Position numbers and translations under genes: made by a program. Under the pieces are notes generated by a model. It had not been told where the DNA came from. It was given only the letters and a program-made list of their open reading frames with translations, and did no database searches. This document shows, in pieces, positions 49,967 to 60,852 of a DNA stretch of 64,000 bases. The stretch is from Saccharomonospora sp. NB11 (lineage in GTDB: Bacteria > Actinomycetota > Actinomycetes > Mycobacteriales > Pseudonocardiaceae): the NCBI RefSeq assembly GCF_015910535.1, contig NZ_JACBJG010000005.1:1-64000 (forward strand), read 5' to 3'. Each line of letters begins with the position of its first letter. Positions within the stretch are counted from its first letter, which is position 1.

Positions 49967-49982
49967 CGTGTGTCCACGACGT

Positions 49983-50062
49983 GCGGACACACGTGCGGGA
50001 AGTGCGGACACATGTGCCCAACTCGCGGACACGAGTGCGCAGACGGCGGACACGCCGTGGGA
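49983..50062. repeat. 21-bp tandem repeat locus B (four units)
   Basis: Four head-to-tail units start at 49983, 50004, 50025 and 50046, each beginning GCGGACAC and continuing NNGTGCG before a variable hexamer. The spacing is exactly 21 bp. The array fills the gap between the convergent polymerase and hrpA genes, and its last unit reaches the hrpA stop. Confidence 0.85.
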
Positions 50063-54853: not shown

Positions 54854-56017
54854 TCAACGCCGCACGAGCGCCGTGGGGGACAGCTCGCGCACGCTGCGGT
54901 GTCCGGACAGTCCGAGCGTGAGATCGAGGTCGGCGAGCAGGCTGCGCACCACGTGCCGCACGCCGTCCTCCCCTCCCAGCGCCAACCCGTACACGTAGGG
55001 CCGTCCCAGCAGCACCGCCTTCGCGCCCAGCGCGAGCGCCTTCACGACGTCGGCGCCGGTGCGGATGCCGGAGTCGAACAGCACGTCGAGCCGGTCCCCC
55101 ACCGCCTTCGCGATCTCAGGCAACACGTCGAGCGACGCCACCGCGCCGTCGATCTGACGGCCGCCGTGGTTCGACACCACGATGCCGTCCATCCCGGCGT
55201 CGGCGGCGCGGCGGGCGTCGTCGACGTGCTGGATGCCCTTCAACACGATCGGCCCGTCCCAGTGCTCACGCAGGAACGGCAGGGCGTCCCACCCACGGTC
55301 GGTCCCGGTGATCATGGAGATCCACCGCAGCACCGCCATGGCCTGGTTCTCCTCGGGCGGCGCGTCGAGCCGTGACCGGAACACCGGGTCGGAGAACGGC
55401 ACGGCCGTGCCCTCGGCCTTGAGGAACGGCAGGTAGCCGTTGTCGAGGTCGCACGGCCGCCACCCGAGCGACCACGTGTCGAGCGTGACCACCAGGACCC
55501 GGTAGCCGTTCGCCCTGGCACGAGCGAGGATGCTGCCGCACACGTCGGGGTCGTTCGGCCAGTACAACTGGAACCAGCGGGACCCGTCCCCGGAAGCCTC
55601 TGCGGTGTCCTCGATGCTCGTGGACGACGCCGTGGACAACACGATCGGCACGCCCAACCCGGCCGCGGCGCGTGCGGTGGCCCGTTCGGCGTCGGGATGC
55701 ACGATCGACTGCACGCCCACCGGCGCGAGGACGACCGGCGCGGGCACCGTCTCCCCCAGCACGGTGGTGGACAGATTCCGCTCGGTGGCGTCGGTGAGCA
55801 TGCGCGGCACGATGCCCCACCGGTCGAACGCCTCCCGGTTCGCCCGGGCCGTCGCACCGGAACCCGCGCCTCCGGCGACGTAGTGGAACGGCCCCGCGTC
55901 GAGCACGCGTTCGGCGGCGGCCTCCAGGCGCGTGGCGTCGGTGGTGAACGCGGGCGGGTTCCCGCCGTACCCCTGCAGGTAGAGCTCACTCTGGTAGTGC
56001 CCGAACCGCTCGCTCAT
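54854..56017 (-). CDS. FMN-dependent alpha-hydroxy acid oxidase (lactate monooxygenase family)
   Basis: This 387-residue FMN enzyme is similar to lactate 2-monooxygenase: FHYVAGGAGSGATARANREAFDRWGIVPRML, VLAPVGVQSIVHPDAE, STASSTSIED, IVLKGIQHVDDAR (Lys), and the catalytic His in VVSNHGGRQIDG with DSGIRTGADVVKALALGAKAVLLGR. The gene could encode lactate oxidation to acetate or oxidation of another alpha-hydroxy acid. GAGGAGGCGCGG precedes ATG 56017. It is divergent from the MerR-clamp gene, 85 bp away, so shared control is possible. Confidence 0.9.
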   Translation of the reverse strand: MSERFGHYQSELYLQGYGGNPPAFTTDATRLEAAAERVLDAGPFHYVAGGAGSGATARANREAFDRWGIVPRMLTDATERNLSTTVLGETVPAPVVLAPVGVQSIVHPDAERATARAAAGLGVPIVLSTASSTSIEDTAEASGDGSRWFQLYWPNDPDVCGSILARARANGYRVLVVTLDTWSLGWRPCDLDNGYLPFLKAEGTAVPFSDPVFRSRLDAPPEENQAMAVLRWISMITGTDRGWDALPFLREHWDGPIVLKGIQHVDDARRAADAGMDGIVVSNHGGRQIDGAVASLDVLPEIAKAVGDRLDVLFDSGIRTGADVVKALALGAKAVLLGRPYVYGLALGGEDGVRHVVRSLLADLDLTLGLSGHRSVRELSPTALVRR

Positions 56018-56102
56018 CCGCGCCTCCTCGCGCCGTGTCGCCGTCGTGCCGCGCCATCCTACGGTTGACCTTCGAGCCGGTCGAAGCCCCAGACTCGGCG
56101 TC

Positions 56103-57131
56103 ATGGACACGATCAGTGCCTTCGCGCGGCGCGTCGGGCTCACTCCGAGCGCGCTGCGCTTCTACGACGACTGCGGCGTCCTGCCGCCCGCCCGCGTGGA
56201 CCCTGACACCGGCTACCGCTACTACAGCGCCGATCAGGAACACGCGGCCGCGCTCCTGCGCACCCTCCGGCAGGCCGAGGTGCCACTCGCCGACATCACC
56301 GCCGTGCTCACAGGTGCTCCGTCCGTGGCCCGCGACGTTCTCACCGCACACGCCCGGCGGTTGCGGGCCCGCGCCGACTCCGCGCACGCGGCGGTCGAGG
56401 CCGCCCTGCGGATGGTGGAGCTGCCCACCCACGGCGAGGTGTCCGTCGGTGGTGCGGAGCTCGCGAGCGCGATCCGCCAGGTGCAGTCCGCGGCCGCGCG
56501 CTCCGGCGACATCGCGGAACTGCGCTGCGTGCTCGTGGAGTGGACCGCCGAGGTGCTGCGGCTGGTGGCCACCGACCGCTACCGCCTCGCGGTGCGCGAG
56601 CTCGTGCCGACGTCGGTGGTGGGACCGGCGAACCACGTACTCGTCCCGGTCGACGCGCTGGTGGACGCGCTGCCGTGGGCGGTGCGCCACGACGTCGTGC
56701 GGTGCGTACTCGCCTCGGACGGCGCGCGACTCGTCGCGCAGCGCTCCGACGGCGACCCGGCGGAGTTGCCGCTGCCCTCGGTCGACGGGGAGTTCCCCGA
56801 CCACCGCCTGCTGCTCGACGCGCTGCCCGCGCGGGAGTGCCGGGTCGTGACCGACCGCGTCGCGCTGCTCGACGCGCTCGCCGCCGCCGACGGCACCGTC
56901 GTGGTGGAGACCGCCGCCGAGGCGGTGCACGTGGGCGAGCGCACCGTGCCCGCCGTGTGCTCGGGAACGGCACGGCTCGGCTTCGATCCCACCGTGCTCG
57001 CGCCCGCGGTCGACGCCGGTGTCGGCCCCGACGTGCTGCTGGAGATCGTCGCCCCCGACCGGCCCACGATCGTCCGTTCCGCCGACCAGGGCAGTTTCAC
57101 CACACTCGTGATGCCCGTGCTCCTCGACTGA
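56103..57131 (+). CDS. MerR-type regulator fused to beta sliding-clamp domains 2 and 3
   Basis: This 342-residue fusion begins with a MerR winged helix (2-70: ISAFARRVGLTPSALRFYDDCGVLPPARVDPDTGYRYY) and a helical linker (about 75-105). Residues 108-342 match DnaN domains 2 and 3: LRLVATDRYRLAVREL (150-167, the TDxxRL cleft motif), LPSVDGEFPDHRLLLDALP (223-241, like SKLVDGRFPDYRRVL) and the C-terminal FTTLVMPVLL (332-341, like YVVMPMRL). Domain 1 of the clamp is missing and the MerR part takes its place. The peptide-binding cleft of the clamp lies between domains 2 and 3, so it could be retained. The natural target and partner are unknown. A TPR gene follows 19 bp later. Confidence 0.87.
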   Translation: MDTISAFARRVGLTPSALRFYDDCGVLPPARVDPDTGYRYYSADQEHAAALLRTLRQAEVPLADITAVLTGAPSVARDVLTAHARRLRARADSAHAAVEAALRMVELPTHGEVSVGGAELASAIRQVQSAAARSGDIAELRCVLVEWTAEVLRLVATDRYRLAVRELVPTSVVGPANHVLVPVDALVDALPWAVRHDVVRCVLASDGARLVAQRSDGDPAELPLPSVDGEFPDHRLLLDALPARECRVVTDRVALLDALAAADGTVVVETAAEAVHVGERTVPAVCSGTARLGFDPTVLAPAVDAGVGPDVLLEIVAPDRPTIVRSADQGSFTTLVMPVLLD

Positions 57132-57150
57132 CCCGAAAGGACCCACCACA

Positions 57151-57630
57151 GTGGACACGAACAACCCCGTCGTGCGCCTGTGCGCCGAAGGCATGCGCGC
57201 CGAGGCGGACGGGCGGGCCGACGACGCGCGAGCGCTGTTCGAGCGCGCCTGGGCGGAGGCGAGCGACGACTACGAGTCGTGCGTGGCCGCGCACTACCTC
57301 GCGCGCCACCAACCCACGATCGCCGACGAGCTGCACTGGAACCAGGTGTGTCTCGACCTCGCCGACGCCGTGACCACCTCCGTCGGCCCGCTCGCCTCCG
57401 CGGTCGCCGCGTTCTACCCGTCGCTGCACGCGTGCCTCGCACGCTGCCACCGTGAACTCGGTGACCTCGACGCCGCGGCCACGCACTACCGTCGAGCCGC
57501 CGACCACCTCGACGCGCTGCCGCCCGGCCCGTACGCCGACGAGCTCCGCTTTGCCGTGGCCGACGGTCTGCGCGCCGTCGGCGCGCCCGGGCCGGATGCC
57601 GCGCACCGGGCTACGGACGCGACTGGTTGA
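57151..57630 (+). CDS. TPR-like protein downstream of the MerR-clamp fusion
   Basis: This 159-residue alpha-helical protein has TPR-like repeats: LCAEGMRAEADGRADDARALFERAWAEASDDYES and a second set CLARCHRELGDLDAAATHYRRAADHL. The sequence YESCVAAHYLARHQPTIADELHWNQ is a conserved block of a widespread actinobacterial family of unknown function. The GTG start follows GAAAGGACCC. It is 19 bp from the fusion gene and should be co-transcribed. It overlaps the convergent DUF4231 gene by 20 bp. Confidence 0.75.
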   Translation: MDTNNPVVRLCAEGMRAEADGRADDARALFERAWAEASDDYESCVAAHYLARHQPTIADELHWNQVCLDLADAVTTSVGPLASAVAAFYPSLHACLARCHRELGDLDAAATHYRRAADHLDALPPGPYADELRFAVADGLRAVGAPGPDAAHRATDATG

Positions 57631-58114
57631 CCACCACCGCCGGGAAGCTCAGGTCCTGGAAGAACACCTGCGCTTCCTCCCCCCGAATCTCGCTCAGCGT
57701 CGACAGGAAGGCCTGGGTCGCGGCGACCACCTCGGCGTCGCTGAGGTGGTTCTCGGCGGCCAGCGTGGTACGCCACTTCCAGTACTCGGTGGTGATCGTG
57801 CGCTCGGTGTTGCGCAGCAGGACCCACGACTGGTCCCACCGGTAGAAGGTGTGCAGGCCCGTGAGGACCGCGACGGCCACGCCCGCCGCGGAGATGGCGA
57901 ACGGTTGCCCGTCGAACTCCGCGTTGGCGAGCAGGGGGAGCGCGGAGCCGATCAGGATGACCAGGATGCCGCTGAGCCGATAGAACCGGCGATGCCAGCT
58001 CGCGCGCGCGTTGTAGAACGCCCGGATTCGCAGTACGTACTCGTCCACGGCGGCGATGAGGCCCTTCTCCGCGACGTCCGGCAGGGCCGACGAAAACGGT
58101 GGCATGAACCTCAT
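57611..58114 (-). CDS. DUF4231/SLATT-like membrane protein
   Basis: This 167-residue protein has an N-terminal helix with YVLRIRAFYNARASWHRRFYRLSG, two hydrophobic segments (about 40-60 and 68-88) and a C-terminal cytoplasmic helix region (WKWRTTLAAENHLSDAEVVAATQAFLSTLSEIRGEE). This is the SLATT/DUF4231 layout, in which two helices precede a cytoplasmic tail. Such proteins occur near nucleotide-signalling defence systems, but none is seen here. GGAGCTGCCGG precedes ATG 58114. Confidence 0.72.
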   Translation of the reverse strand: MRFMPPFSSALPDVAEKGLIAAVDEYVLRIRAFYNARASWHRRFYRLSGILVILIGSALPLLANAEFDGQPFAISAAGVAVAVLTGLHTFYRWDQSWVLLRNTERTITTEYWKWRTTLAAENHLSDAEVVAATQAFLSTLSEIRGEEAQVFFQDLSFPAVVVNQSRP

Positions 58115-58422
58115 CCGGCAGCTCCTTCGATGATCGACGTGGGCGGCCCCGGAGTGTGGGCGGCGGGTCACGCGCCGCGTCACTGCGCGATTCGTGAGGC
58201 GATTGAAGCGAATTTCCGCTGGTGACGGCAACGCGTTCGCCGTGATTCGCGCCTCCCGAGCACGGTTACCGACGCGTCAGGGGGCCAAGGTCGGGCTCCG
58301 ATCAGCCGGCCGTGTCTGATTTGCAACGTTGCCGACGAGATCACATCGAAGCCGGAAACACCGGGGGCCACTCCGTGGTTGGTGGTGGTCGGGACCAACG
58401 ATCGAGACGCACAGGAGGTCAG
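58115..58422. other. Divergent promoter region of about 310 bp
   Basis: No gene is convincing here. The interval separates the DUF4231 gene from the exporter gene. It holds a 10-bp palindrome GCAACGTTGC (58323-58332) with flanking T's, resembling a LacI-family half-site pair with central CG. AGGAGG of the exporter lies at 58413-58418. Confidence 0.45.
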
Positions 58423-59667
58423 GTGGCCGGAAGCACGGCGGTGAACGAGGTTCGAACGACGCACACGTCCTCGACCCCACGCACCCGGCCTCCTCGTACC
58501 GCCCGCTACGCCCTGCTGCTCGGAGGGCTGACCGCGTTCGGTCCGCTGTCCATCGACATGTACCTGCCGGCGTTGCCCGTGATGGCGGGCGAGCTGAACT
58601 CCACCGACACGCAGTTGCAACTGACGCTCGCCGTGTTCCTCGTCGGCCTCGGCGTCGGACAGCTCGTCGCGGGTCCGCTGTCCGACGCGTTCGGTCGGCG
58701 GCGGCCTCTGCTCGTCGGCGTGGTGGTGTTCGCGGTGGCGTCGGCCGTCGCCGCGCTCAGCCCGTCCGTGCCGGCGCTCGTCGCCGCCCGGGCCGTGCAG
58801 GCACTCGGTGCCGCCACCGGCATGGTCATCGCACGCGCCGCGGTGCGCGACCTCTACTCGGGCGTGGCGATGGCGCGGTTCTTCTCCACGCTGATGCTCG
58901 TGACGGGCGTGGCGCCCGTGCTCGCACCGCTGCTCGGCGGGCAACTGCTGCGCTGGACGTCGTGGCGAGGCATCTTCGTGACCCTCACCGCGTTCGGCGT
59001 CGTCCTGCTCGTCGTCGCCGCGCTCGCGCTGCCCGAGACCTTGCCGCGCGGTCAGCGCCGGTCGGCCCGGCCCGGCGACATCGTCCGCACGTACGCGGCA
59101 CTGCTGCGCGACCGGATCTTCGTCGGGCACGCGCTCACCGTGGGCCTGGCCTTCGCCGCGATGTTCGCCTACATCTCCGGCTCCAGCTTCGTGTTGCAAC
59201 ACCACTACGGTCTCTCGCCCGCCGAGTACGGCGTCGTGTTCGGCCTCAACGGTGTGGGCCTCGTGCTCGTCGGGCAGCTCAACGGCAGGCTCGTGAGCCG
59301 CTTCGCTCCCAAGACACTGCTGCGGACGGGACTGACGGCCGCCATCGTCGGCGGGCTCGGCATCGTGGCAGCCGCCGCAGCCGACGCGTCGCTGCCGTTG
59401 TTGCTGCTGCCGCTGTTCGTCACGGTGTCGTCGGTGGGGATGGTCGGGCCGAACGCCACCACGCTGGCGCTGGCCGACCACCCGAACTCGGCCGGTTCGG
59501 CCTCGGCGTTGCTGGGCCTGGTGCAGTTCCTCGTCGGGGGTGGCACGTCGCCGATCGTCGGGCTGCTCGGAGGGTCCGCGCTGGCGATGGCCGCCGTGAT
59601 GGCGACGGCCGCCGCTGCGTCGCTCACGGTGTCCATATCGCTCACGCGGGCGTCGTCGGCGCATTAA
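58423..59667 (+). CDS. Bcr/CflA-family drug-resistance MFS transporter
   Basis: This 414-residue protein has twelve predicted helices. The family motif LTAFGPLSIDMYLPALPVMAGELNSTDTQLQLTLAVFLVGLGVGQLVAGPLSDAFGRRRPLLVG holds the MFS motif A (GPLSDAFGRRRP). The second half contains ADHPNSAGSASALLGLVQFLVG, typical of Bcr/CflA. Substrates of this family include bicyclomycin, chloramphenicol and dipeptides; here it is unknown. GTG 58423 is preceded by AGGAGGTC. Confidence 0.88.
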   Translation: MAGSTAVNEVRTTHTSSTPRTRPPRTARYALLLGGLTAFGPLSIDMYLPALPVMAGELNSTDTQLQLTLAVFLVGLGVGQLVAGPLSDAFGRRRPLLVGVVVFAVASAVAALSPSVPALVAARAVQALGAATGMVIARAAVRDLYSGVAMARFFSTLMLVTGVAPVLAPLLGGQLLRWTSWRGIFVTLTAFGVVLLVVAALALPETLPRGQRRSARPGDIVRTYAALLRDRIFVGHALTVGLAFAAMFAYISGSSFVLQHHYGLSPAEYGVVFGLNGVGLVLVGQLNGRLVSRFAPKTLLRTGLTAAIVGGLGIVAAAAADASLPLLLLPLFVTVSSVGMVGPNATTLALADHPNSAGSASALLGLVQFLVGGGTSPIVGLLGGSALAMAAVMATAAAASLTVSISLTRASSAH

Positions 59668-59957: not shown

Positions 59958-60067
59958 GGGCGTGTCCGCGCCCCTCGCACGCGTGTCCGCACCTCCCGCA
60001 CGCGTGTTCGCCCGGCCCGCACGCGTGTCCGTACCTCCCGCACGCGCGTCCGCGATTCCCGCATGTC
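59958..60067. repeat. 21-bp tandem repeat locus C (four full units and flanks)
   Basis: Full units start at 59976, 59997, 60018 and 60039, each CGCACGCGTGTCCGC (with one or two changes) plus a variable hexamer such as ACCTCC. The period is exactly 21 bp. Partial units lie on both sides. The array stands in the 142-bp gap between two same-strand genes, and its orientation is opposite to locus B. Confidence 0.87.
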
Positions 60068-60774: not shown

Positions 60775-60852
60775 ACACCGGCGTGCCCGCGAACTGCGAT
60801 CACGCGTGCGCGACGTGCGGACACGCGTGCGCAGAGCGCGGACACGCCGGTG
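60775..60852. repeat. 21-bp tandem repeat locus D
   Basis: Units GCGATCACGCGTGCG (60796) and GCGGACACGCGTGCG (60817), each with a hexamer, are in exact 21-bp register and are followed by a partial unit GCGGACACGCCGG (60838). A divergent unit lies upstream. The array lies between the convergent methyltransferase and glyA genes. Confidence 0.83.

Follow-up and report, generated by a model that had tools for sequence, protein, structure and literature searches.

The window analysed here is a 64,000-nucleotide stretch of the genome of Saccharomonospora sp. NB11, and at 56103..57131 its forward strand carries a gene with an ATG start whose 342-residue product joins a MerR DNA-binding domain to two thirds of a sliding clamp. 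The N-terminal winged helix (residues 1-70, 56103..56312) matches Pfam MerR_1 across residues 3-70 (9e-14; 51.8 bits against a cut-off of 21.6), recurs in 49 of 49 relatives, and comprises helices 4-11, 15-23, 43-57 and 62-70 in the predicted structure model; sequence matches to this part are to the BmrR, BrlR, EcmrR and TipA chains. A single helix follows in the model (residues 73-104, 56319..56414) and is a putative dimerisation coiled coil - in the MerR family, a long helix after the winged helix serves antiparallel dimerisation. The remainder aligns with domain 2 (residues 109-233, 56427..56801) and a shortened domain 3 (residues 234-342, 56802..57128) of the replicative clamp DnaN, both by hhalign and by VIA fold matching, which covers the families on the VIA list. 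Close fold matches to this part are the griselimycin-bound clamp structures 5ah2 and 5agu. Domain 3 has alignment gaps at E. coli clamp positions 271-274 and 293-301 by hhalign, and the fusion scores 40.7 bits against the curated DnaN family TIGR00663, far below its cut-off of 137.65. The same genome also encodes a full-length DnaN, which at 323.5 bits is over that cut-off. Pfam, hhalign, VIA and the structure model thus confirm what the first-pass annotation had read from the letters, namely a MerR winged helix joined to DnaN domains 2 and 3, and its further claim that clamp domain 1 had been replaced holds as well: domains 2 and 3 alone align, with MerR in place of the N-terminal part. A sequencing artefact or frameshift joining two separate parts is ruled out, since the frame and both domains are intact in 49 of 49 aligned relatives.

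Judged by the alignment, the residues of the clamp's head-to-tail dimer interface are not retained in the fusion. I272, L273 and E298 (E. coli numbering) fall in alignment gaps, the E304 column is aligned and kept in 0% of 89 fusions, and the interface residues of domain 1 are absent. Retention in the 89 fusions is 0% for K268 and 6% for R269, two residues that we take to act in the DNA channel.

The pocket of the clamp has been treated differently. Subsite II of this pocket accommodates the conserved Gln of clamp-binding motifs. We took as pocket residues those of the E. coli clamp listed in the accessible portion of a review (PMC11139829) and carried them onto the fusions by the hhalign alignment. 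The subsite I segment TDRYRL (residues 157-162, 56571..56588; E. coli T172-L177) is conserved in the profile of 89 fusions at 0.99 (T), 0.99 (R), 0.94 (Y), 0.97 (R) and 0.93 (L), and MPV (residues 337-339, 57111..57119; E. coli M362-M364) at 1.00, 1.00 and 0.93. Kept as in actinobacterial DnaN are L155, T172, R174, Y/F175, R176, L177, P242, L360, M362, P363 and V364; the changes are N320 to D, Y323 to V and frequent loss of R365, with positions 152, 246, 247 and 344 variable. In the window's own subfamily, D295, V298 and L340 replace N320, Y323 and R365 in subsite II. Among columns near-invariant in DnaN (at least 13 of 14 actinobacterial sequences), retention in at least 90% of the 89 fusions is seen for 10 of 14 in the pocket and 12 of 61 outside it (Fisher P 0.00037), and mean conservation is 3.48 bits in pocket columns against 2.70 in the rest of the clamp part (P 0.0025), both statistics treating related sequences as independent. 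The four pocket columns short of 90% are E. coli positions 152, 247, 320 and 365, and several of the 12 retained non-pocket columns adjoin pocket residues in sequence. Across the three subfamilies described below, the positions of L155, T172, R174, Y175, R176, M362 and P363 are the same in all 15 sequences and P242 in 14 of 15. Subfamily C, whose pocket is more like that of DnaN, has N320 in four of five, F or Y at 323 in five of five and R365 in five of five.

That the core of the pocket is kept and the interface features are lost suggests that selection has held the pocket and given up the features needed to form a ring. The alteration of subsite II in turn argues that the ligand of the fusion would differ from the classical Q-type motif. 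Of the earlier proposal, a retained pocket is supported at subsite I, most of which is kept in the 89 fusions. Subsite II is altered, with N320, Y323 and R365 having given way, and the most conserved surface is a family-specific segment that DnaN lacks, so that the reading of clamp motifs by the fusion is at most a possibility.

Two stretches make up this second surface: VGPDVL (residues 307-312, 57021-57038) and RSADQGSFTTL (residues 325-335, 57075..57107), with each residue at 0.98-1.00 in the 89 fusions and the wording mostly unlike DnaN. The segment, which was picked post hoc, has the highest mean conservation in the protein, at 4.19 bits (the MerR domain averages 3.46), and selection may accordingly act on a site other than the pocket. 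Strands in the model run 310-315, 322-326 and 332-336; from this order, the loop that precedes 310 and the one that follows 326 would meet at the sheet edge remote from the pocket, and the two stretches may form one patch, possibly a contact site for the MerR domain, the second subunit of the dimer or the protein encoded downstream. Subfamily B has a related version, R-SAD-x-G-DLTTLAMP; subfamily C is without the segment and has RRPDDEDTFSLLMPVR there.

Upstream of the fusion lies a promoter/operator element (56065..56095, forward strand) made up of TTGACC (56065-56070), a 19-bp spacer and CAGACT (56090-56095), and inside the spacer is a perfect inverted repeat, CTTCGA-N5-TCGAAG, with six-base arms and a five-base loop (56070-56086). 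As the ATG at 56103 comes seven bases past the -10 element, the transcript is likely to be leaderless or nearly so. At 95 of 96 loci (the exception is L028) TTGACC[TC]T is present within 160 bases upstream of the fusion, corresponding to 86 distinct sites. In an ungapped stack of these sites the -10 element has its A and its T in every sequence (100%), which supports the 19-bp spacer; an automatic -10 search matched 33 of the 86, every one at 19 bp, and the start codon stands 38 bases after TTGACC in 70. When a stricter operator pattern was run over both strands of the 80 named loci it gave 60 matches, 59 of them no more than 160 bases upstream of a fusion (in 57 loci) and the sixtieth at L086, where the fusion is incomplete and its extrapolated start lies 242 bases downstream of the match. 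The same layout is present in 11 of 11 loci of subfamilies B and C. Subfamily C loci L144-L148 carry an operator variant, TTGACCCTCGACC.

The window's promoter thus has the overlong spacer (19-20 bp) with dyad of MerR-type promoters, and spacer, dyad and conservation together point to autoregulation, with the fusion controlling its own promoter in an arrangement typical of MerR. Strain NB11 (G000) has one exact operator site, at the fusion's own promoter, plus two with one mismatch, and nine of 21 related genomes have one exact match each, all at the fusion promoter. With up to one mismatch, the 21 genomes contain 56 sites against 13 for a reversed control pattern, and there may be a weaker regulon beyond the fusion's own promoter. 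No RNA element was found in 55500-58500 at Rfam gathering score.

Nineteen bp past the fusion, a gene with a GTG start (57151..57630, forward strand) encodes a TPR-type protein that, on adjacency and fold evidence, is a likely operon partner. Its TPR matches fall slightly under Pfam cut-offs, VIA likewise returns TPR matches, and the model is helical with pLDDT 89.2; no clamp motif is evident in it by eye. We counted neighbours by tblastn because a crude gene-call cluster (cluster 1) seemed to mix the dehydrogenase described below with spurious antisense frames. The TPR-type gene lies 11-156 nt downstream of the fusion on the same strand in 61 of the 80 named-genome loci and is absent in 19, and none was found beside subfamily C fusions. 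In one relative with a 99% identical fusion (G128, L088), a deletion corresponding to window 57184-57574 takes out the greater part of the TPR gene, and the fusion frame is open. Of 30 loci in genus g64 (L218-L247), 28 have a paralogue of the TPR gene immediately after ung (uracil-DNA glycosylase) and in the same orientation, which suggests a link to repair. A further TPR-type paralogue, at L201, faces a gene for NAD-dependent DNA ligase in convergent orientation, and L210 appears alike.

On the other side, an FMN-dependent alpha-hydroxy-acid dehydrogenase/oxidase gene (54854..56017, reverse strand, ATG at 56017; Pfam FMN_dh 2.7e-127) is divergent from the fusion across a common 85-bp intergenic region, and adjoins it in only 8 of the 80 named loci. 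Relatives having both genes carry TAGGAT between them, by eye a candidate -10 element of the dehydrogenase. Clustering of genes in the 6-kb flanks of fusions yielded no recurrent drug-export or resistance gene. Elsewhere in the window, GC-rich tandem repeats of about 21 bp and similar wording (ACGCGTGTCCGCACCTCCCGC and the like) lie at 49979-50054, 59960-60054 and 60788-60847, mainly between genes.

The first-pass annotation had anticipated similar fusions in other actinobacteria, and these are plentiful. A scan of named genomes with peptide patterns from the window's fusion, which favours close relatives, retained 80 of 83 loci, in genera that include Saccharomonospora, Prauserella, Amycolatopsis, Saccharopolyspora, Streptomyces, Streptosporangium, Nocardiopsis, Actinoallomurus and Microlunatus. 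Within the family to which the strain belongs, at least 45 of 200 genomes have a match that starts no later than residue 5 and extends to 338 or beyond (the full tally of 117 includes MerR-only matches). Genus g64, presumably Streptomyces, has a match in 66 of 150 genomes, and in 63 of these it begins by residue 3 and reaches at least 327. Across the phylum, with five candidates scored per genome, 11 of 396 genomes have a match over both parts, all in the same class, and most of the 104 matches are DnaN itself. An origin from a mobile element was considered and rejected: the phage collection had a single match, limited to the MerR part, and plasmids gave 11 records, four covering at least 80% of the query. 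NCBI annotates the plasmid relatives as 'MerR family transcriptional regulator' and nothing more. In several relatives (G001, G006, G007, G204 and G212; L212-L217), two or three full-length DnaN-like genes score above the family cut-off.

We built a tree of 51 sequences (20 of the 89 fusions, 10 distant fusions, 15 DnaN and 6 second DnaN), the root of which is unplaced. The window's subfamily and subfamily B (100/99) fall in one clade (99/98); subfamily C is on a separate long branch on the DnaN side, where the grouping of DnaN with second DnaN is weak (86/65). A single fusion event may or may not lie behind all subfamilies.

Starting from what is established - the fusion, its fold, the selective retention of the pocket, the loss of dimer-interface residues, the conserved promoter element and the gene pairing - we propose that the protein is a MerR-family transcription factor that regulates its own gene and has half a sliding clamp (domains 2 and 3 of DnaN) as its C-terminal effector. 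It would pair with a second copy via the helix after the winged helix, and the dimer would sit on the inverted repeat in the 19-bp spacer of its own promoter. The clamp part would no longer encircle DNA and would act as a receptor, with a ligand - either a protein that has a clamp-binding motif or a small molecule that mimics one, for example a peptide of the griselimycin type - docking in the retained pocket. Binding would alter the shape of the dimer such that RNA polymerase could use the promoter, and the outcome would be more regulator and, presumably, more TPR-type protein. We consider it very probable that the protein is a MerR-type factor that regulates itself and has an effector domain of clamp fold; the whole account, including gating by a pocket ligand, falls a little short of an even bet. 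The preservation of much of the pocket, and of the gene in many actinobacteria, suggest that the fusion may sense clamp-binding proteins or antibiotics.

Other explanations start from the same observations. The clamp fold could be a ligand or partner domain that works via VGPDVL and RSADQGSFTTL, perhaps with the TPR protein or a small molecule as its binding partner, and the pocket would then be a structural remnant. The exceptional conservation of a segment mostly unlike DnaN, chosen post hoc as it was, its related form in subfamily B, the frequent adjacency of the TPR gene and the altered subsite II all fit such a reading, yet subfamily C lacks the segment and has N320, F/Y323 and R365 in most members, and a remnant should not hold its pocket columns better than other columns invariant in DnaN; we regard it as unlikely, if deserving of attention. 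A dedicated antibiotic sensor, in which the half-clamp is a drug-target decoy that detects DnaN-binding peptides of neighbours and turns on a protective gene, like TipA or BmrR, would suit the antibiotic-rich soil genera in which the fusion occurs and the close fold match to griselimycin-bound clamps. Actinomycetes make such clamp-targeting peptides: griselimycin and mycoplanecin are, in the accessible text of PMC10817943, small peptides filling both pocket subsites of DnaN, and their producers have a second DnaN gene of the GriR/MypR type for self-resistance. The altered subsite II of the fusion sits badly with ligands that occupy both subsites, however, and the sole recurrent operon product is the TPR-type protein rather than any drug exporter or resistance determinant, which makes a sensor of this kind rather improbable.

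It is highly improbable that the fusion still acts on the replisome, joining or poisoning the normal clamp or bringing clamp clients to the operator instead of sensing them. Retention of the pocket and a normal dnaN in the same genome would allow it, whereas the dimer-interface residues are lost and a single strong exact-pattern site per genome fits a local switch better. Divergent regulator-target gene pairs are usual for MerR proteins, and the shared 85-bp intergenic region could mean that the fusion controls the dehydrogenase gene and senses a metabolite, its clamp origin being incidental; against this, the promoter element is near-universal and the dehydrogenase is a neighbour at one locus in ten, so that we rank this reading as the least probable.

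The clamp-derived regulator that we favour can be set beside several known systems. GriR and MypR, as described in the accessible text of PMC10817943, resemble it in being second clamp-derived genes besides the housekeeping dnaN, with the clamp pocket as the drug site, and differ by that description in being DnaN-encoding self-resistance genes, whereas the fusion is a partial clamp on a regulator. With DnaN itself it has the domain 2 and domain 3 fold in common, along with most of subsite I and the C-terminal MP segment, but the fusion is without domain 1, has interface residues in gaps, has lost K268/R269, scores far under the family cut-off and bears a DNA-binding domain. BmrR, TipA, EcmrR and BrlR have in common with it a winged helix, a long helix, a C-terminal effector-type domain and a dyad in a 19-bp promoter spacer; the effector domains of regulators of this type are GyrI-like, TipAS or metal-binding, whereas that of the fusion consists of two replicative sliding-clamp domains. 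Our searches of open-licence literature turned up no description of a MerR-clamp fusion.

The familiar inputs of MerR factors are metals, oxidants and small drugs, and a member of the family that carries the replicative clamp's fold and its pocket would add a new kind of signal to those that bacterial transcription responds to. As griselimycins target the clamp pocket, the fusion could be a ready-made reporter with which to find clamp ligands. It also makes testable the question of whether cells have a dedicated sensor for clamp occupancy or clamp-targeting antibiotics. We tentatively suggest, while judging it somewhat less likely than not, that free clamp-binding proteins or pocket-filling antibiotics directly set a small, LexA-independent, TPR-containing stress operon through this clamp-derived receptor, which would allow these actinobacteria to read the state of replisome and repair, or clamp-directed chemical warfare.
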